A stretch of 64,000 nt of DNA. It comes from Lutibacter sp. Its GTDB lineage: Bacteria > Bacteroidota > Bacteroidia > Flavobacteriales > Flavobacteriaceae. Of the stretch, positions 16,539 to 24,331 are shown piece after piece. The translations under genes were made by a program, and so were the position numbers. Each line of letters starts with the position of its first letter. Position 1 is the stretch's first letter. The stretch spans positions 1-64,000 of the forward strand of contig NZ_JABDRI010000101.1 in assembly GCF_013041805.1 (NCBI RefSeq), written 5' to 3'. The notes beneath the pieces are model-generated. The model saw nothing but the letters and a program-made list of their open reading frames with translations, had not been told where the DNA came from and made no database searches.

Positions 16539-16991
16539 TTAAAATTTATACACCAATCTTTTTAAATACAAAAGCTGATTTTTATAATCTATTATTGCTT
16601 TGCCCTTTTCAAGAATATCTGCCCCAATAATTCCATCCACAGCATCAGCATTATGCTCAGTTAAGGCCGTATTTACATGTGTCAAATCCAACAATACTAA
16701 ATGACAATTATGATAGCGCCAACCTTTTAATCCAAGTTTATTTTTTGTGGAAATTTTAGTCTCAATACCAATGGCGCCAGCTCCTGCGGCTTTTGTTTCA
16801 GAATCTTTCACCTCTAATTTAAACTTACCATCTAAATGAATATCAACACAAGAATTAGAAGCTCCAGTATCTAAAATAAATCTACCTTTTACACCATTTA
16901 TAGTTGCTTTTAACTCAAAGTGATTCGTGTTAATTTTCTTGAGTTTTATTTTAGTGTAGCCTTTTCTTATAAGGATGTTGTTTAATTTCAT
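16539..16991 (-). CDS. Retropepsin-like aspartic protease (clan AA)
   Basis: A 150-residue protein, a single retropepsin-like domain. Catalytic motif FILDTGASNSCVD with Asp-41, then the second conserved hydrophobic-Gly element DGIIGADILEKGKAIIDY near the end. Such proteins act as dimers, each giving one Asp. No signal peptide is visible (basic N-terminus MKLNNILIRKGYTKIKLKK), so it is probably cytoplasmic or peripheral. It is the last gene of a minus-strand run, 22 bp after the CHAT-protease gene, which suggests a linked function, but the substrate is unknown. Confidence 0.8.
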   Translation of the reverse strand: MKLNNILIRKGYTKIKLKKINTNHFELKATINGVKGRFILDTGASNSCVDIHLDGKFKLEVKDSETKAAGAGAIGIETKISTKNKLGLKGWRYHNCHLVLLDLTHVNTALTEHNADAVDGIIGADILEKGKAIIDYKNQLLYLKRLVYKF

Positions 16992-17013
16992 GGAGTGTTA
17001 ATTTCAGTCAAAT

Positions 17014-19686
17014 TTAACGCTTTTTTAAAAGAAAGTACCCAACTAAAACTAAGATTCCTAGAAATAGAATCCACATAAAATTAAAGCCTTTATTTTCAAA
17101 AGAAGTTACCTCACCTATATATATGAAGCTTGCCCAATAGAAAGGTGACTTTTTACTTGCCACAATTGATTTATTTTCAAGATAGGCTAATTTTGAATGA
17201 TGTAAAGCAGCTGATTTATTTCCTGTGTTCTTATAATTTTTATAAAACGCTGCCATAAGTCTTTCTGTAGACTTATCATTAACTTTCCATAAAGAAACGA
17301 GTAAATTTTTTACACCTGCATACGAAAATCCACGTGCTAAACTCATAGCTCCTTCTCCTTTTCTTAAAGTTCCTAAACCTGTTTCGCAAGCACTTAAAAC
17401 TAACAAATCAGTTTCTAAATTATAGCCATAAATTTCAGGTAAATAGAGTGTTTCATCATAAAACTCAATGGCTGGTGGTGTATAATAATCGCCTGAAGTT
17501 GCGTGCGTTGATAAGTGAACAATCTCATACTTTTTTACGAGCGTATTAAAGACTTCTTTTGAAGCATTCTCTTTTAATAAAAAAGTACCCTTCATACTAT
17601 TCTTAACACTTTCTGATTCTTGCAAGGTATATGTAAGTTCAGCTAATTTGCGATGATTGTTCTCAAAAACCGGAAAAAAGCCAATGAAACTATCCTTTGT
17701 ATTTTCTTTTATTTTTGCATCATACATTAAAACAGAGGCCGAATACGCAAAGCTTATCCTACTTTTTTTAAGTAAATAGGGTAACTTTTCGAAGTTTGTG
17801 TTAACTGTTTTCTCCGTAATTAAAGCATCAAAAGGAAGAAAGGAAAACACACCATCCGGAACAATTATTGTGTTTTTAGGCAACTCAATTGTAATAATTT
17901 TTCTAAATAACTCATATCCTAACGAAGTGTATTTTGCAACATTATTTTGTAAAGCAGTTCCTCGACTATCAGCAAATAGGCTTAAAAATTGGGAAATTTG
18001 ATATTTAAAAGTAGTATCTTTTACAATCTTATCCAATTTAGGTTTAGCTGTTTTAGAAATATAAAAAATATACACATACTCTTTACCATCAAAAAACTCA
18101 ATAAATTGTTCGTTGTTAACTAATAATTTTTCTTTAATACTTTTAAATGAAATTAAACTGTCATTCCTAATAGCTAACGATGGATATTTCTTTTTAATCT
18201 GCTGCTTTACTAGTTGTAATTCATTAAAAACAATGTTACGCCTATTCGTTAAATCTGCTAATAAATTTATAGATGCTTTTTTACCTTTTAATTCTTCAAT
18301 AGTAATGCTTTTATTTAATTGTGCTTTCTTAAAAGTTAGATCCTTTTCAATTATGAATAAAGAATCATTTTTAATTGTTGACTTTTGAAAAGCTGCTTCT
18401 TTAGCTTCTAATAATACTGCCGATTTTGATAGTTCGGCAAAATGAAATGCCTTTTCAAGCCAATTGATAGTTTTAGTTTGTTGATATAATTCGTAACACA
18501 AATCAATACAATTTTCACTTCTATTTCTATTTTCTTGTTGTTGAATTACTTTCGCATTCTGACTTAATAAAGAGGCTCTTAATTCATCTTCAACCTTAAA
18601 AGCCAATTCATAGTTTTTTAGTGCATTTTCAAAATCGTTTTGTTGAATAAAAAGTTGAGCTCTTCCGTCCAAAGCTTCTTTTAATGTATTTTCAGGATAA
18701 AAATAAGTTGCTTTAGGATTCTCAAAAACCGTTTTTGGCTGATACTTTGGAAGCAATGTACTCAACGATTTTTGATAATACGTTAATCCATTTTCAAGTT
18801 GATTGGTTTGACCATAAACTTCAGCAAGTTGATTGTAAATTTTAGCAACTTCTCTATCGTGTTCCCCAAAAGCTTTTCGTGCATTTTTTAAAGCATCCTC
18901 CAATTCAATAATTGCTTGATCAAACTCTCTAAGTTGAACAAAACAATTTGCTAACGTAATCCTATTTTTGGCTAAAATTGAACTATTAGAATCAACATTG
19001 AATTGATTTGAAAATTGTACGTTTTTTTTCGCTTTTTCAATATCTTTTAAATACAAAAAATTAATAGCTAAATCGGAATAAACTCGCGCTTTTAGTTGAT
19101 TTTCAGTTGATAAATTCAAGCTTAAATTCAAATAAGTAATGGCTTGTAAATAATCTCCTTTTGTTCTAAAAACAGTTGCTAAATTTGAATATCCAGCGAT
19201 TAACTGGGAGGTATCCTGTTCTTTTTGAGCTTTTTCAATGGTAATTTTTAAAATATCTTCGGCTCTATCAACATCCCCTAATCGTGTATAATTATTGGCT
19301 AATGGCTTTAGGCAATACTCAATAATATCGAATTGAATGTTCGTATTGTAAATTGCAAAGGCTTTTTCATATTCAAGTATTGACTGATTAATAAATCCAA
19401 ATTGTTTTAAATAAAACGCATAATTAATGTGCAAATAAAGTTGTGCTGTTGTTTCACTAGTATTTTTTGGATTACGCCATAGATTGGTTGAAACATCCTC
19501 AAATAATTTTAAATTTTCAATAGTTGCGTTTTTTGCATACGCATCTAGTTGTCTATAAATAAATTCAGAAAAATTGTCTTCCGTTTTTAATGAGTCTAAA
19601 GTTATTTTAAAATTAGAATCAGTACGTTGAGCAACTGAACTAACACCAAAAAGAAGAAAAAATAAAATGACTATATTTTTTAGCAT
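17014..19686 (-). CDS. TPR-CHAT (caspase-like) protease, secreted and membrane-anchored
   Basis: An 890-residue protein. Signal peptide (MLKNIVILFFLLFGVSSVAQ); tetratricopeptide repeats over about 85-400; a helical linker; a CHAT domain over about 600-845; a C-terminal membrane helix (FMWILFLGILVLVGYFLL) followed by KKR. The caspase-type dyad is intact: His-728 in VHLSTHATSG and Cys-767 in LSACETGLG, with downstream GEGAMSLARGFSYAGV typical of CHAT. The topology places TPR and CHAT in the periplasm, anchored in the inner membrane. It lies 6 bp after the PKD/barrel gene and 22 bp before the aspartic-protease gene, so all three are probably one operon. Target and trigger are unknown. Confidence 0.88.
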   Translation of the reverse strand: MLKNIVILFFLLFGVSSVAQRTDSNFKITLDSLKTEDNFSEFIYRQLDAYAKNATIENLKLFEDVSTNLWRNPKNTSETTAQLYLHINYAFYLKQFGFINQSILEYEKAFAIYNTNIQFDIIEYCLKPLANNYTRLGDVDRAEDILKITIEKAQKEQDTSQLIAGYSNLATVFRTKGDYLQAITYLNLSLNLSTENQLKARVYSDLAINFLYLKDIEKAKKNVQFSNQFNVDSNSSILAKNRITLANCFVQLREFDQAIIELEDALKNARKAFGEHDREVAKIYNQLAEVYGQTNQLENGLTYYQKSLSTLLPKYQPKTVFENPKATYFYPENTLKEALDGRAQLFIQQNDFENALKNYELAFKVEDELRASLLSQNAKVIQQQENRNRSENCIDLCYELYQQTKTINWLEKAFHFAELSKSAVLLEAKEAAFQKSTIKNDSLFIIEKDLTFKKAQLNKSITIEELKGKKASINLLADLTNRRNIVFNELQLVKQQIKKKYPSLAIRNDSLISFKSIKEKLLVNNEQFIEFFDGKEYVYIFYISKTAKPKLDKIVKDTTFKYQISQFLSLFADSRGTALQNNVAKYTSLGYELFRKIITIELPKNTIIVPDGVFSFLPFDALITEKTVNTNFEKLPYLLKKSRISFAYSASVLMYDAKIKENTKDSFIGFFPVFENNHRKLAELTYTLQESESVKNSMKGTFLLKENASKEVFNTLVKKYEIVHLSTHATSGDYYTPPAIEFYDETLYLPEIYGYNLETDLLVLSACETGLGTLRKGEGAMSLARGFSYAGVKNLLVSLWKVNDKSTERLMAAFYKNYKNTGNKSAALHHSKLAYLENKSIVASKKSPFYWASFIYIGEVTSFENKGFNFMWILFLGILVLVGYFLLKKR

Positions 19687-19692
19687 AGCACC

Positions 19693-21687
19693 TTATATTT
19701 TCCAAATTGCATAAAAATGCAGTTGAGAATGTGGTTGATTTAAATTATACAAATAACGCACTCCAACACTTGGGCCAATTCTAGATGCTCCAATTGTTAC
19801 ATCTCCAAAAATACCGTAATTAATATCACTAAAAGACGAGTTAGTTTCAGTTTCTATTGTTTCATTAAGTGCCTCAATTGGATCTCCAACAATATCTTTT
19901 AAATACGTAAAATAGCTAGAGTTTGTTGTATTGCTCGTTTCGTTAGAAACATCAAAAGAAAGTTGAGGCCCAATACCCAAACCAATAACTCCATTTAAAT
20001 TATATCGAAATGAAATAGGGACTACATCAATATTTAATTTTGTGATTTCTGAGTTTGTTTCATCAAATCGTATAGCACTATCAATAATTACATCTTGATC
20101 TAAAATAACTGGACCAAGTTGTTCGCTGCTACTTTTAAAATCTCCAAATTCGTGAGTAGAAATCATGATTTCAGCTTGCAGGTATTTTTTATAAGATTTA
20201 TAAGGAGAAATTGTGGCTCCAACAAAATAACTTTTAGAATCTTTTACATCTAAATAACTGTTGTACCCAGATTTTACACCAATAGAAATCCCTGGCGAAA
20301 AACGTGAAGTTGATGTATTTGTTATGATTGGTTCATTTTTATCAAAAATAATTGCGGTTTTACTTTTAGACTTTTTCTTATGAAAATCGTTTCCAAATTT
20401 TAGTGAATATTTTACAAACCCTTTAGTAGAATCCTTATCATGAACTCCTTTTTGAGCTGTTCCTGGTAAATAAATATTTTTAAATTGAAATGAAATCTGG
20501 TCTTTTAAAATAATCGTATCCAAACAACTATATCTCACTTCTTCTTCCGGACAAATAGGACATTCAGGATACATATCCAATACTTTTAAACTTGACTTAT
20601 CTAACATTTCAGGAATATCAACATTTAATTTTATCAATCGAGCTGGACCTTCTCCATCATTTTGAAAACGAACTTTATATTTTAATCGTTTAAAACGAAC
20701 CAACCTGTAATTTAATCTTGTATCGTAAACTGCCATTTTATTTGGGTCGTGCGAGGTTACAATTTCCATTTCTTTGGTTAACACTTTATGGGAATCGTTA
20801 CCACGTTCAGGTACATAAATACTTCTAATTGAAATAACAGCACTTGTATCTTTTAACATTTCAGGTGTTGTTTTAAAGCTAAAAAACATGTTACGCTCTT
20901 CATTCGCTTCCAAATAATCAACATCATACACTTTAACATCTTGATAATACGCTTTAGCTTCTTCTAAAGATAAGGGTAAGTTTTGCTTTAGTGTATCAGA
21001 AACTATTAGTTTTTCATTTATAAATGTTGAAACACCTGTAGTTTTTATGAATTCGTTTTTAGAAATATATCTATTATTATCAACTATTATTTCATCTGAA
21101 ATTTCTTTTTCATTGTGATGTAACCTCACATCTACTAAATCAAAATTTTTCGCTTTGTATTTCTTTTCATTAAAAAAAACGTACACTCTTCCGCTAGTTG
21201 GAAATTCTTTTGTGTTTCCATAACTTAGCACCAACTGCATTTCTTCATCAGGTACTGGATCTCTATTTGTTTGTAACCTAAATCCATTATGAGCAGCTAC
21301 TAAATTATGATTTTCATTTTCAGAAGTATCAAAATTTGCTTCTTGAATAGCAACTTCTTTTGGACGAGTTGCTGGTGGTTTCCCATCGTCATAATTATTA
21401 GTTACCGATAATTGAGTGTTATAGTTCCCTTTCTTTTTATACGTATGCTTTGGCTTTTCTTCAAAACTATAATCTCCATCACCAAACTCCCAGTAATAAG
21501 TGTAAAACGCTTTTGGCGCTCCAGCAATTTGATTTAATTGAGGTGTTTTAGGATTAAAAGAAACCCGATTCAAATCCACTGAATATTCAATAGTGGCTGT
21601 CCTCTCTATGGTGTCATTTTCTATTGCCTGTCCGTAAAAAGTAAAAGATAATAAAAGCACAAAAAGTGCTGAAACATAATTTTTCAT
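19693..21687 (-). CDS. PKD-domain outer-membrane protein
   Basis: About 664 residues from ATG at 21687, which gives a clean signal peptide (MKNYVSALFVLLLSFTFYGQ). The open frame reaches 21735, but those codons overlap the promoter. A PKD domain lies near the N-terminus (YYWEFGDGDYSFEEKPKHTY). The middle has beta-sandwich stretches, including a DUF11-like segment (KVRFQNDGEGPARLIKLNVD) with a CPICPEEE cysteine pair. The last 200 residues alternate as barrel strands and end LHFYAIWKI, so a small outer-membrane beta-barrel is likely. It is the first gene of the operon with the CHAT protease and could be its outer-membrane partner. I do not recognise a named family. Confidence 0.75.
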   Translation of the reverse strand: MKNYVSALFVLLLSFTFYGQAIENDTIERTATIEYSVDLNRVSFNPKTPQLNQIAGAPKAFYTYYWEFGDGDYSFEEKPKHTYKKKGNYNTQLSVTNNYDDGKPPATRPKEVAIQEANFDTSENENHNLVAAHNGFRLQTNRDPVPDEEMQLVLSYGNTKEFPTSGRVYVFFNEKKYKAKNFDLVDVRLHHNEKEISDEIIVDNNRYISKNEFIKTTGVSTFINEKLIVSDTLKQNLPLSLEEAKAYYQDVKVYDVDYLEANEERNMFFSFKTTPEMLKDTSAVISIRSIYVPERGNDSHKVLTKEMEIVTSHDPNKMAVYDTRLNYRLVRFKRLKYKVRFQNDGEGPARLIKLNVDIPEMLDKSSLKVLDMYPECPICPEEEVRYSCLDTIILKDQISFQFKNIYLPGTAQKGVHDKDSTKGFVKYSLKFGNDFHKKKSKSKTAIIFDKNEPIITNTSTSRFSPGISIGVKSGYNSYLDVKDSKSYFVGATISPYKSYKKYLQAEIMISTHEFGDFKSSSEQLGPVILDQDVIIDSAIRFDETNSEITKLNIDVVPISFRYNLNGVIGLGIGPQLSFDVSNETSNTTNSSYFTYLKDIVGDPIEALNETIETETNSSFSDINYGIFGDVTIGASRIGPSVGVRYLYNLNQPHSQLHFYAIWKI

Positions 21688-21703
21688 TGTTAGTAGATTT
21701 AAA

Positions 21704-21711
21704 CAAATATA
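21704..21711 (-). promoter_or_regulatory. -7 promoter element of the PKD/CHAT/protease operon
   Basis: On the minus strand TATATTTG (TAnnTTTG) 17 bp before the chosen ATG, with TTG at 21733-21735 about 21 bp further upstream as a possible -33 element. Confidence 0.5.
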
Positions 21712-21764
21712 AAAAAAGGATTTAAGTAAGTGCAAGACAGCATAAACGTTTGATGAAAAAATGT

Positions 21765-21794
21765 AAAAAGAGACTCTCCAAAAAGGAGAGTCTC
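21765..21794 (-). terminator. Intrinsic terminator of the lipoprotein gene
   Basis: GAGACTCTCC pairs perfectly with GGAGAGTCTC around a 5-nt loop; on the minus strand a run of T follows. It separates the lipoprotein gene from the PKD/CHAT operon, so that operon has its own promoter. Confidence 0.85.
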
Positions 21795-21839
21795 AATTAC
21801 AGCAATTAACCTATTTCTAACTGTTCTCTAATTGCAATA

Positions 21840-22889
21840 TTATGGTAAATCGTTAATTAATGTTTCTAAAGCTGCTTGTGTAATTGGACTTAAACTTGAA
21901 ATTACTTCAATATGATCGTCTACAATTGTTGTTCCTTGTATGGCGTAATTTAATTGTCCGTCTATTTCAGCAACCATAATAATGTGTACTTCTAATCCAA
22001 CTGGAATTAATCCGTAATGTTCTGTAAACATCTCCAACTCGGTATTATAAACATCCATTCTTGCTAAAGCTGTTGGTTCTCCATCGTATGATAAGTAAAC
22101 AGCACAATTATCTTGATTAAATTCGTTTGGCACATCAATAAATATTTCTGTTTTAGCTCCTGCATAATTGTACCATCTGTCTAAGTTTGTCCATCCAAAA
22201 TCTCCAATATCATAATTATACGTTGCGAAAGCACCATCAGCACCTTGAGCATCTCTAATTTGAGCATCATCTTGTTCACCATTTCCATCTTCATCAGCTT
22301 CAACCCAATCACAATCATCATCAATACCATCACAATCTTCATCCGGTCCTCCTCTAAAAATTTGCATTCCTCCATCTAGATCTGCAAAATCAACTGGTCT
22401 ACTATTCACGTTTGCCATGGCTAATAATTCTAATTCATTTGACCCTTGTTTTGCATTGATAAAAAATTCTCCCGCTGATTTTAACGCTTCTTTATCGCCA
22501 TTATCTCTCATTCCTAAAGTTGATTTATTCTTTAATAACATAGAAGCTTTATCATAAATTTCAATAAGTTCTACTGTAACATTTCCAGTAACTGGACTTC
22601 CATTTATTCCAAAAGAATTTGGTTGAAAAGTTACTTGTGTTCCTTGAGTTCCTGTAATTACACCACCTGATGCAGCGTCTAATGTAAATTCTTGTAAAGC
22701 ATCAACTCTATTGTCTAAAAAACGAGCTGCTAGAGCTTCACCGTCTGGTTGAGTTTGAGCAACTTCATTGTTGTCGTCAATACAACTTGCCAAACTTGCA
22801 AGAACCATTATTCCTAATACATTTTTAAAAATTCTGTTTACAACTTTACTATTGTTTAAGTTTGTAAAATTTTGTTTTTGTGTTTTCAT
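21840..22889 (-). CDS. Lipoprotein with acidic calcium-binding-like segment
   Basis: A 349-residue protein with a lipobox (LASLASC, Cys-36) after a long basic N-region, so probably a lipoprotein. Residues of about 55-160 look like a beta-rich domain (GGVITGTQGTQVTFQPNSFG and TVELIEIYDKASMLL, a pattern seen in bacteroidetal surface proteins with a ZU5-like fold). About residues 180-215 are extremely acidic with DEDCDGIDDDCD and DEDGNGEQDD, resembling thrombospondin type-3 calcium loops. The rest is beta-rich. It is divergent from the ECF sigma gene (118 bp between) and upstream of the CHAT operon on the same strand. Function unknown. Confidence 0.7.
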   Translation of the reverse strand: MKTQKQNFTNLNNSKVVNRIFKNVLGIMVLASLASCIDDNNEVAQTQPDGEALAARFLDNRVDALQEFTLDAASGGVITGTQGTQVTFQPNSFGINGSPVTGNVTVELIEIYDKASMLLKNKSTLGMRDNGDKEALKSAGEFFINAKQGSNELELLAMANVNSRPVDFADLDGGMQIFRGGPDEDCDGIDDDCDWVEADEDGNGEQDDAQIRDAQGADGAFATYNYDIGDFGWTNLDRWYNYAGAKTEIFIDVPNEFNQDNCAVYLSYDGEPTALARMDVYNTELEMFTEHYGLIPVGLEVHIIMVAEIDGQLNYAIQGTTIVDDHIEVISSLSPITQAALETLINDLP

Positions 22890-23007
22890 AATTATTAAAT
22901 TTTAATTGTTTTTAAATTTGTGTTACACTAACATATCAACAGGTTTCTTTTTTTGTTACCCCTTTTTCTAAAAAAAAAATTAAATTAGCTATCTCTAACA
23001 TTTGTAA

Positions 23008-23589
23008 ATGAGCCAAAAACCACACGCAGACCATATATATATTGAGGCTTTACTAAAAAACAACAGTAAAGTACTTTCTGAAATTTATTTGAAGTTTTCT
23101 CATAAAATTATTTCGTACGTAAAAAAGAACAATGGAAATTCAGATGATGCTCAAGATATTATTCAAGAAACATTAGTCACTATTTATCACCAAGCAAAAG
23201 AGAAAAATTTTATACTTACATGTCCGTTTGATGCGTACTTCTATTTATTATGTAAAAGACGTTGGTTGAATGAACTTAAAAAAAGAGGAAATAATAGGGT
23301 AACAATTTTTGAAGATGACACATCTATTACTGAAGAGCAAGAACAACAAGTTGAAGAAACTGAAATTTTTGAAAAACAAAGTCAGCTTTTTGAGTCAAAG
23401 TTTAAAGAATTAGGTGAAAAATGTCGAGAATTATTAAAAACCACCTTCAAAATTAAATCGATGGAGAAAGTTGCCGAAATTTTAGGTGTTACTTATGGAT
23501 ATGCTCGAAAGAAAAAATCACAATGTATGGGTAAGTTAACGCAGCTTGTGAAAAATTCGAATGAATATCATCAACTAAAAGCGTACTAA
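23008..23589 (+). CDS. ECF-type RNA polymerase sigma-70 factor
   Basis: A 193-residue protein with sigma region 2 (SDDAQDIIQETLVTIYHQA and DAYFYLLCKRRWLNELKKR) and region 4 helix-turn-helix (SMEKVAEILGVTYGYARKKK). The length and lack of regions 1 and 3 fit an extracytoplasmic-function sigma factor. The start codon lies only four bases after a TAACATTTG sequence, so the transcript may be leaderless. The next gene begins one base after the stop and encodes a membrane-anchored TPR protein, the usual place of an anti-sigma factor. The divergent lipoprotein and CHAT operon are candidate targets. Confidence 0.92.
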   Translation: MSQKPHADHIYIEALLKNNSKVLSEIYLKFSHKIISYVKKNNGNSDDAQDIIQETLVTIYHQAKEKNFILTCPFDAYFYLLCKRRWLNELKKRGNNRVTIFEDDTSITEEQEQQVEETEIFEKQSQLFESKFKELGEKCRELLKTTFKIKSMEKVAEILGVTYGYARKKKSQCMGKLTQLVKNSNEYHQLKAY

Positions 23590-23590
23590 A

Positions 23591-24331
23591 ATGAAAGAAG
23601 ATCACTACATAACATTCGATAACTATTTAAATAATGAATTATCAGGTGCAGAGTTAGCATCTTTTGAAGAACAATTAAATTCTGATGCAGATTTTAAGCA
23701 AGAATTTGAAATATATAAAGCCATAGAATCTTCATTAAGTTCAAAATTTGAAAATGAAGAAGAAGAAAAAGCGTTAAGAAATACACTTTCAAAATTAGGT
23801 TCAACTTATATAAAACAAGAAAATTCAACTAAAAAGAAAGGAAAAGTAATTTCCTTCTTAAATTATAAAAAATTGATGGTTGCAGCAAGTATTGCGCTCT
23901 TAATTGGTTTTTTCTTATTCAATAATGGAGAGCCTGTTTATAGTGATTTCTCCAGCCATCAAGCATTAGAATTAGTGGTAAGAAGTGAAAATAATGAAGC
24001 TATAGTAAAGGCTCAAGAAGCGTTTAATTCTAAAAATTATGAAGTTGCTTTAGAGCAATTAACCATATTGTCTGAAACAACTAAAAACGATGCTGAAATT
24101 GAGTTATATAAAGGAATTTGCTTTTTAGAGCTAAATAATTATGTGGAAGCCGATGTTATTTTTGATGAAATAAGTGGTGGAAATTCTGCTTTTGTAAATA
24201 CTGCATCTTGGTATAAAGCGTTAAGTATGTTAAAACAACAACAGTTTGAAGCGTGTAAATATGTTTTACAAAGAATTCCTGAAAGCGCTGATGAATACAA
24301 TAAAGCTCAAAAGTTATTGAAGAAGTTATAA
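23591..24331 (+). CDS. Membrane-anchored TPR protein, probable anti-sigma factor
   Basis: A 246-residue protein. The N-terminal about 60 residues (TFDNYLNNELSGAELASFEEQL) have the pattern of the bacteroidetal anti-sigma cytoplasmic domain. One membrane helix at about 95-112 (LMVAASIALLIGFFLF) is followed by a periplasmic C-terminal region with two or three TPR-like repeats (EAFNSKNYEVALEQLTIL, GICFLELNNYVEADVIF, WYKALSMLKQQQFEACKYVL). It is coupled to the upstream ECF sigma gene (1 bp apart). The most likely role is to hold the sigma factor at the membrane until a periplasmic TPR-mediated signal releases it. The TPR in both this protein and the CHAT protease is notable. Confidence 0.75.
   Translation: MKEDHYITFDNYLNNELSGAELASFEEQLNSDADFKQEFEIYKAIESSLSSKFENEEEEKALRNTLSKLGSTYIKQENSTKKKGKVISFLNYKKLMVAASIALLIGFFLFNNGEPVYSDFSSHQALELVVRSENNEAIVKAQEAFNSKNYEVALEQLTILSETTKNDAEIELYKGICFLELNNYVEADVIFDEISGGNSAFVNTASWYKALSMLKQQQFEACKYVLQRIPESADEYNKAQKLLKKL

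Follow-up and report, generated by a model that had tools for sequence, protein, structure and literature searches.

In the type III-E CRISPR Craspase, the TPR-CHAT protease Csx29 cleaves Csx30, an inhibitor of an extracytoplasmic function (ECF) sigma factor (PMC10028731). Related logic is found in the DegS-RseA-RpoE pathway, where an ECF factor is controlled by regulated intramembrane proteolysis (PMC10028731, PMC8999054), and in the CRISPR system CalpL-CalpT-CalpS, a triad of protease, anti-sigma factor and ECF sigma factor (PMC11417357). In Actinobacteria, genes for CHAT, subtilase and carboxypeptidase proteins lie near the ECF54 factors, whose model member is from Geodermatophilus (PMC8999054). 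Here we describe a locus of Lutibacter sp. within the first 64,000 nucleotides of contig NZ_JABDRI010000101.1, a stretch referred to below as the window. The locus is a unit of five gene families encoding an ECF sigma factor, a membrane TPR anti-sigma-like protein, a lipoprotein, an outer-membrane protein (OMP) with PKD, DUF7619 and DUF7849 domains, and a TPR-CHAT protease. It looks like an uncharacterized envelope-to-gene signalling pathway, with similar sets in many related bacteria. Our reading, which we hold with a probability of about one half, is that an exported, membrane-anchored caspase-like protease acts on a transmembrane TPR anti-sigma factor and that the genes form an envelope signalling module.

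The locus shares with Csx29-Csx30-CASP-sigma a TPR-CHAT protein with a His/Cys dyad, a candidate sigma inhibitor and an ECF sigma factor. In contrast to Csx29, which in the published account is activated by RNA through Cas7-11 and works inside the cell, the Lutibacter CHAT protein carries export and membrane signals as predicted from hydropathy; unlike Csx30, the inhibitor candidate is a single-pass TPR protein. Seven flanking proteins at 12.5-31.4 kb (OdhA, OdhB, TatD, a methyltransferase, a tRNA synthetase and two without a family) include no Cas protein, a negative confined to these neighbours, as neither a CRISPR-array search nor a genome-wide Cas7-11 search was made. The likeness to DegS-RseA-RpoE lies in a sigma gene adjacent to one for a single-pass anti-sigma-like protein with a predicted periplasmic domain; here, however, the candidate first-cut protease is the CHAT protein encoded nearby, and the periplasmic domain is a TPR domain. 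A CHAT gene close to an ECF sigma gene recalls ECF54, as does a subtilase gene in one paralogous locus (L128), but ECF54 is described without an anti-sigma factor, whereas a membrane TPR protein stands beside sigma in 21/21 loci of this genus, which belongs to another phylum. The CalpL-CalpT-CalpS triad is alike in composition, yet CalpL is a Lon-type protease activated by cA4 within a CRISPR system (PMC11417357). A search of the open-licence literature returned no description of an exported CHAT protein paired with a sigma/anti-sigma couple. An earlier interpretation made from the DNA letters alone (the sequence-only reading) had known of no described system with this exact gene set; within that literature this stands for an exported CHAT protein combined with an anti-sigma-like TPR protein in the membrane, but not for the general plan, given the cytoplasmic Csx29-Csx30-CASP-sigma system (PMC10028731) and the CHAT genes near ECF54 (PMC8999054).

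In the TPR-CHAT protein of the locus, Pfam identifies a CHAT domain at residues 607-859 (PF12770, E 8.8e-45) together with a TPR array; it is the single CHAT-domain match in the whole genome. The His728/Cys767 dyad was correctly placed by the sequence-only reading, and alignment finds it invariant in every orthologue and paralogue compared (64/64 and 12/12), so the loss of the dyad among orthologues that would have spoken against that reading is not seen. Domain and dyad together assign the protein to the CHAT family as a predicted protease. The CHAT region gave no match to Protein Data Bank (PDB) sequences by phmmer up to E 1, and a PDB search with the whole profile was dominated by TPR-type chains (best 60 of 228). 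The protein begins with a signal-peptide-like segment (approximately residues 1-19) and ends with a hydrophobic segment followed by a KKR tail. Judged by a hydropathy cut-off, the C-terminal segment is present in 63/64 orthologues and 12/12 paralogues, with a basic tail behind it in 56 of the 64 orthologues and all 12 paralogues. An N-terminal hydrophobic segment is present in 50/64 orthologues and 8/12 paralogues, several of which have uncertain start codons. The signal peptide and C-terminal anchor of the sequence-only reading are thus borne out as hydropathy predictions, and the protease appears to reside outside the cytoplasm.

The second element is the pair formed by the sigma factor and the membrane TPR protein. 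The sigma factor matches PF04542 (Sigma70_r2, E 1.1e-6) and, over residues 23-179 of 193, the sigma70-ECF family TIGR02937 (E 1.9e-17); this agrees with the sigma regions 2 and 4, without region 3, that characterize ECF factors. Directly 3' of it on the same strand, 1 bp downstream, lies the TPR gene, and the product has both the gene arrangement and the single transmembrane (TM) segment of an anti-sigma factor. This TM segment is predicted by hydropathy in 60/60 orthologues and 12/12 paralogues, which confirms the sigma/membrane-TPR pair noted earlier. The structural model of the TPR protein (mean predicted local distance difference test score (pLDDT) 76.7, predicted template-modelling score (pTM) 0.55) consists of N-terminal helices, a TM helix modelled with low confidence and a TPR domain; the last of these matches the TPR domains of BamD and YbgF with Z ~15.5, a score to be read against the 13 that helical repeats commonly reach. 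We infer that the TPR protein is an anti-sigma factor whose N-terminal domain holds sigma.

Between the TM segment and the TPR domain, Arg131 is an arginine in 60/60 orthologues, and the 12 paralogues have 10 Arg, 1 Lys and 1 Gln at this position. The site is just outside the TM segment, and the residue that follows is mostly Gly or Ser. Arg131 is a candidate protease site or docking residue, and an arginine at a cut site would fit a separase- or gingipain-like preference.

The genes of the locus are inherited together. Strong matches to the CHAT protein, TPR protein, lipoprotein and OMP occur in the identical 21/38 Lutibacter genomes, and in 21/21 of these a sigma gene adjoins the TPR gene; sigma was counted by its place beside the TPR gene rather than by a genome-wide search, and the CHAT gene of one genome (G024) is cut by a contig end. 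Weaker matches, which fall outside this count, comprise a part of the TPR protein in 7 more genomes (E 3.9e-7 to 1.3e-5), PKD-sized pieces of the OMP in 3 more and a CHAT remnant in 1 (G017). This remnant, in locus L084, is a frame-broken C-terminal piece beside an intact aspartic protease gene on a short contig that also carries tatD. All five genes lie in one place in 10/21 genomes and in two places in 11/21, where sigma-TPR with 1 or 2 lipoprotein genes is separate from OMP-CHAT; in five of these genomes the two parts share a contig but are separated by more than 120 kb. On an OdhA tree of 37 genus members, the pattern of presence and absence needs 7 changes, of which starred branches force 6, and 2 suffice for the two-place arrangement, on a single-gene tree built by a quick method in which 18/36 inner branches are open. 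Genomes with all genes in one place could lose them by one deletion, which makes co-loss there weak evidence for a functional link; the stronger evidence is therefore that 11/11 split genomes keep both parts. One genome without the system (G002) groups, within a starred clade, with seven split genomes and a linked one (G009); it may have lost both parts, but the ancestral state of this clade is uncertain.

The same association extends across the family. An initial contig scan of genomes gave 5 loci only, and the set used here comprises 43: 40 around CHAT orthologues of other Flavobacteriaceae and three from the collection of named genomes. A layout widely shared among them runs tatD - TPR - sigma, lipoprotein(s) - OMP - CHAT, in many cases with the aspartic protease and odhAB next in line. 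The OMP is present in 43, the lipoprotein in 42, sigma in 40, the TPR protein in 39 and the aspartic protease in 31. TPR stands beside sigma in 39/40 sigma-bearing loci, the remaining one being truncated where its stretch ends, and the TPR genes missing from L092, L095, L113 and L121 are elsewhere in the genome or just beyond the stretch. Among 299 Flavobacteriaceae genomes, 43 encode orthologues of both the TPR and the CHAT protein, 2 have only TPR, 2 have only CHAT and 252 have neither, with cut-offs (E <3e-61 for TPR, E <1e-90 for CHAT) chosen after the lists were seen; the four one-gene exceptions are genomes that are 80-85% complete. The family CHAT search, like the one outside the family, scored at most 3 candidates per genome, and the paralogue counts given below are of matches listed. 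The co-occurrence that the sequence-only reading relied upon is thereby found in both genus and family. In 9/9 family loci read (L091, L093, L096, L097, L100, L103, L105, L107 and L114), the interval from lipoprotein to sigma encodes a small protein of ~140-165 residues whose N terminus resembles a signal peptide; the 118-bp gap between these genes in the window is too short for it.

A smaller combination recurs in paralogues. Flavobacteriaceae encode further TPR-CHAT proteins with 21-25% identity to that of the window over the alignment, and among the matches listed, with the window's own genome left out, 76/104 of their genes lie within 10 kb of a paralogue of the TPR anti-sigma gene; random placement would give ~1% for two TPR genes per 4-Mb genome. 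Forty-five of these pairs are less than 500 bp apart, and 45/45 are convergent, tail to tail. We read 12 paralogue loci (L125-L136), chosen because CHAT and TPR were linked, and 12/12 carry a sigma ORF, which the gene map displays in 11 and not in L135. Their layouts are of several kinds and their accessory genes differ, including a VKOR-thioredoxin protein in L131 and a ricin-type lectin protein in L127. Profiles of the window's OMP and lipoprotein found no counterpart in the 12 loci except for one 12-bit OMP match (L135). Outside the family, 23/43 TPR matches have a listed CHAT gene within 10 kb, in six family codes of the phylum. Because the trio recurs with differing accessories, sigma, TPR anti-sigma and TPR-CHAT look like a constant core around which the surface proteins vary. 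One of these loci (L128:9651-13791) combines the paralogous trio with a subtilase and a PKD protein bearing a type IX secretion system (T9SS) sorting tail, and another encodes a small protein with a T9SS sorting tail.

On the footing of domains, topology signals, an intact dyad, co-inheritance and recurrence of the trio in paralogues, all read from sequence, the following route can be proposed. The membrane TPR protein would hold sigma, with its N-terminal helices in the cytoplasm, one TM segment and its TPR domain in the periplasm. TPR-CHAT would be exported and, through its C-terminal segment, tethered to the inner membrane, an anchoring that would therefore turn the catalytic domain toward the TPR domain of the anti-sigma factor. 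An envelope signal, probably sensed through the OMP and lipoprotein, would activate TPR-CHAT, which would then cut or remodel the anti-sigma factor on its periplasmic side; sigma, once freed, would act first on its own promoter.

Several findings weigh against this reading. Cleavage of the anti-sigma factor and its hold on sigma are both inferred, and the anti-sigma domain match of the TPR protein is weak (NF052375, E 0.0034, 17 bits where the cut-off is 100). Arg131 may equally be structural, for example a cap, and model confidence around it is moderate (block means 78-85), unlike that of a disordered linker. Linkage is also incomplete: 7/45 CHAT orthologues are without a TPR match on the same contig; of the 104 listed paralogous CHAT genes, 24 are without TPR on the contig and 4 have it only more than 10 kb away; and outside the family 20/43 TPR matches are without a listed CHAT gene within 10 kb.

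A GTTACC element lies within 130 nt upstream of sigma in 21/21 genus loci, 31/39 family loci and 7/12 paralogue loci, compared with 3.3% of background windows; in these upstream sets, as in the homologue alignments and hydropathy counts, many ORFs were taken to begin at the first Met of their frame, which may lie upstream of the true start. This pattern fits autoregulation, and sigma probably controls its own gene through a promoter-like element. The remaining genes give a result that counts against the broader circuit, as GTTACC precedes the OMP in 0/43, CHAT in 1/43 and the lipoprotein in 3/61 cases in family loci. A sigma regulon that includes OMP-CHAT is accordingly unsupported, and control of the genes at 17-23 kb by sigma, which the sequence-only reading had entertained, is not upheld. 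Nor did a wider regulon emerge: a loose GTTACCC pattern has 2 matches in the genome against 6 for a reversed control, and a similar pattern has 1 match in the window against 0.56 expected by chance, so a genome-wide regulon built on this element was rejected or left unproved. Upstream of the OMP, a TAnnTTTG element, which we take to be the promoter motif of the Bacteroidota housekeeping sigma factor, occurs within 200 nt in 20/20 Lutibacter loci, and its frequency in other family loci (3/43, within 130 nt) is that of background.

The same genes could be joined in a different order of events, with CHAT as an effector rather than an activator: the sigma pair would sense by other means, for example DegS/RseP-like proteases, and CHAT would process or degrade envelope proteins, for example the OMP or lipoprotein. 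OMP and CHAT are indeed the most closely linked genes, with 6 bp between them in the window, and are adjacent in 19/19 fetched genus loci holding both, the OMP is present in 43/43 family loci, and the sigma block is located elsewhere in 11/21 genomes. We nevertheless consider this arrangement rather unlikely, as the 12 paralogous loci keep sigma-TPR-CHAT with no OMP or lipoprotein counterpart beyond the 12-bit match in L135, and the sigma-type element stands before the OMP in 0/43. Those paralogous loci bear equally on an improbable alternative in which OMP, lipoprotein and CHAT make up a machine for surface assembly or export, with CHAT maturing the exported proteins and the sigma pair only tuning the machine's amount. 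The domain content of the OMP would suit such a machine, as would the acidic residues behind the lipoprotein's lipid-anchored cysteine (at least 2 among the six following residues in 80/88 homologues, counted without a control set) and the T9SS-tailed proteins of L128 and the second paralogue locus; yet the OMP and lipoprotein were not seen in the paralogous loci read, and the domain scan gave no sorting-tail match on the six proteins of the locus.

An anti-phage or other defence role, in which TPR-CHAT, triggered by damage, activates sigma-dependent genes in the manner of type III-E CRISPR, would agree with the Csx29-Csx30-CASP-sigma architecture and with variable presence inside the genus. 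It is nonetheless very unlikely, given that PADLOC returns weak matches only (the aspartic protease to PDC-M08B, 2.6e-6; TPR repeats, 3.8e-5) and that a place beside tatD and odhAB is common to many Flavobacteriaceae, unlike that of a mobile defence island. That the neighbourhood is a chance gathering of unrelated genes appears true of the aspartic protease, a common gene near odhAB, but for the other five families it is scarcely credible and in our view refuted by the counts of co-inheritance and recurrence (21/38 Lutibacter genomes, both genes in 43/299 family genomes, 76/104 listed paralogous CHAT genes near a TPR gene). CHAT-dependent release of sigma at the envelope is the preferred reading. 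Of the envelope sensing or proteolytic-response system put forward in the sequence-only reading, co-occurrence and an exported CHAT with a sigma/anti-sigma pair are retained, and the second protease and sigma control over 17-23 kb are not.

A broader proposal, which we advance tentatively, is that exported, membrane-anchored CHAT proteins throughout the Bacteroidota are dedicated first-cut proteases of TM TPR anti-sigma factors and cut at the conserved Arg outside the membrane. To our knowledge, few bacterial CHAT proteases outside the CRISPR cases have a known substrate. If the proposal is true, the numerous TPR-CHAT proteins that Flavobacteriaceae and other Bacteroidota export would gain a direct candidate substrate in the adjoining TPR anti-sigma protein. 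Envelope sigma pathways under caspase control would make up an entire class with interchangeable surface sensors (in this locus the ZU5/GAIN-like lipoprotein and the PKD barrel), and CHAT would be a caspase-like counterpart of the DegS step in envelope stress signalling. The anti-sigma-cutting protease seen in Craspase would then be a broader design, of which Csx29-Csx30-sigma would be a cytoplasmic example.

The lipoprotein has no Pfam family of its own, and its character is most apparent from the model (mean pLDDT 86, pTM 0.81). The lipobox Cys36 is kept in 88/89 homologues, so the lipoprotein assignment stands; the calcium-loop-like acidic stretch attributed to it does not represent a conserved site, as across 90 homologues the loop measures 14-28 residues, is missing from one row and varies in its acidic positions, which rules it out as the family's functional calcium site. 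Structural comparison by VIA-align of residues ~60-275 gave the ankyrin-B ZU5 domain (Z 10.1, rmsd 3.5, 131 aligned), the GAIN domains of CD97 (Z 9.2, 146 aligned) and BAI3 (Z 8.1), and the ZU5 domains of UNC5b (Z 7.3) and NLRP1 (Z 6.4); residues 245-335 matched Ig/transthyretin-like folds. Best Z scores of 7 to 8 are common for models without a clear match, and the top rows here are somewhat higher. Foldseek returned 7 matches at E <0.001, all cyclodextrin glycosyltransferases (best E 1.3e-5, TM-score 0.18-0.19). In contrast to this modelled resemblance to ZU5/GAIN domains, there was no convincing match to PDB sequences, and Pfam run on 87 homologues (E up to 1) gave no convincing family, the commonest being Lum_binding (14 members, best E 0.0015) and ZU5 not being among the best 25 of 29 weakly matching families; the protein of this locus itself had no match in that scan. 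Residues 219-240, roughly the expected position of an autoproteolysis site, contain no His. Animal ZU5-UPA proteins act together with caspases; by analogy, the pairing of this lipoprotein with a CHAT protein is only a parallel worth testing. Copy number is 1-3 in related loci, with a tandem pair in 8/11 split-locus Lutibacter genomes (L047, L049-L053, L055 and L056) and a single copy in the 10 linked genomes.

For the OMP, Pfam confirms the PKD/barrel assignment of the sequence-only reading with PKD, DUF7619 and DUF7849 domains. Its start, formerly placed at 21735, was moved to 21687, where an ATG encodes residue 17 of the TTG-initiated ORF; Met occupies this position in 61/62 homologues, and the stretch before it holds stops in five genus loci, whereas none occur downstream of the ATG in 20/20.

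All six ORFs drawn by the sequence-only reading were recovered in an ORF check of the window, on the same strands and, except for this start, at the same coordinates (Table 1). They form at least three gene blocks, sigma-TPR on the plus strand and lipoprotein and OMP-CHAT on the minus strand. A hairpin scan of the region found 4 terminator-like sites compared with 2.5 in shuffles, and the hairpin between lipoprotein and OMP has by far the longest stem.

Table 1. Coordinates of genes and sequence elements at the locus, numbered from the first nucleotide of the window.
Feature	Coordinates	Strand	Basis and remarks
Retropepsin-like clan AA protease, 150 aa	16539..16991	-	neighbour only, outside the system
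TPR-CHAT protease, 890 aa	17014..19686	-	ORF check, Pfam, alignment, hydropathy
CHAT Cys767 codon (catalytic dyad)	17386..17388	-	conserved in 64/64 orthologues, 12/12 paralogues
CHAT His728 codon (catalytic dyad)	17503..17505	-	conserved in 64/64 orthologues, 12/12 paralogues
OMP with signal-peptide-like N terminus, PKD, DUF7619 and C-terminal DUF7849 barrel	19693..21687	-	Pfam, alignment
TAnnTTTG element TATATTTG upstream of OMP	21704..21711	-	20/20 Lutibacter loci within 200 nt
Terminator-like hairpin in the lipoprotein/OMP gap, 10 pairs and T tail	21770..21794	-	hairpin scan
Lipoprotein, lipobox Cys36	21840..22889	-	model: ZU5/GAIN-like domain and Ig-like domain
Conserved pre-sigma element GTTACCC...TTAAATTAG, candidate autoregulatory promoter	22955..22988	+	upstream comparison
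ECF-type sigma factor, 193 aa	23008..23589	+	Pfam, TIGR02937
Membrane TPR anti-sigma-like protein, 246 aa	23591..24331	+	N-terminal helices, 1 TM (~93-111), C-terminal TPR
Arg131 codon of the TPR protein	23981..23983	+	alignment; candidate cleavage or docking residue

The sequence-only reading had also treated the aspartic protease as a partner of the CHAT protein. Its clan AA identity is upheld by a match to Asp_protease_2 (E 2.6e-11) and by the DTG motif (D41, T42, G43) in 48/48 homologues. The partnership is not: because 37/38 Lutibacter genomes carry the gene whether or not the system is present, it is a neighbour only and was ruled out as a member. In 13/17 genomes without the system, it lies within ~5 kb of odhA; in three of the others (G002, G016 and G017) the two genes are on separate contigs, and the fourth (G012) is without an odhA match. 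In G036 and G013 (loci L028 and L029), remnants of the aspartic protease adjoin the CHAT gene and an intact copy is present elsewhere in the genome, which suggests that the module moved carrying a piece of its former neighbour.

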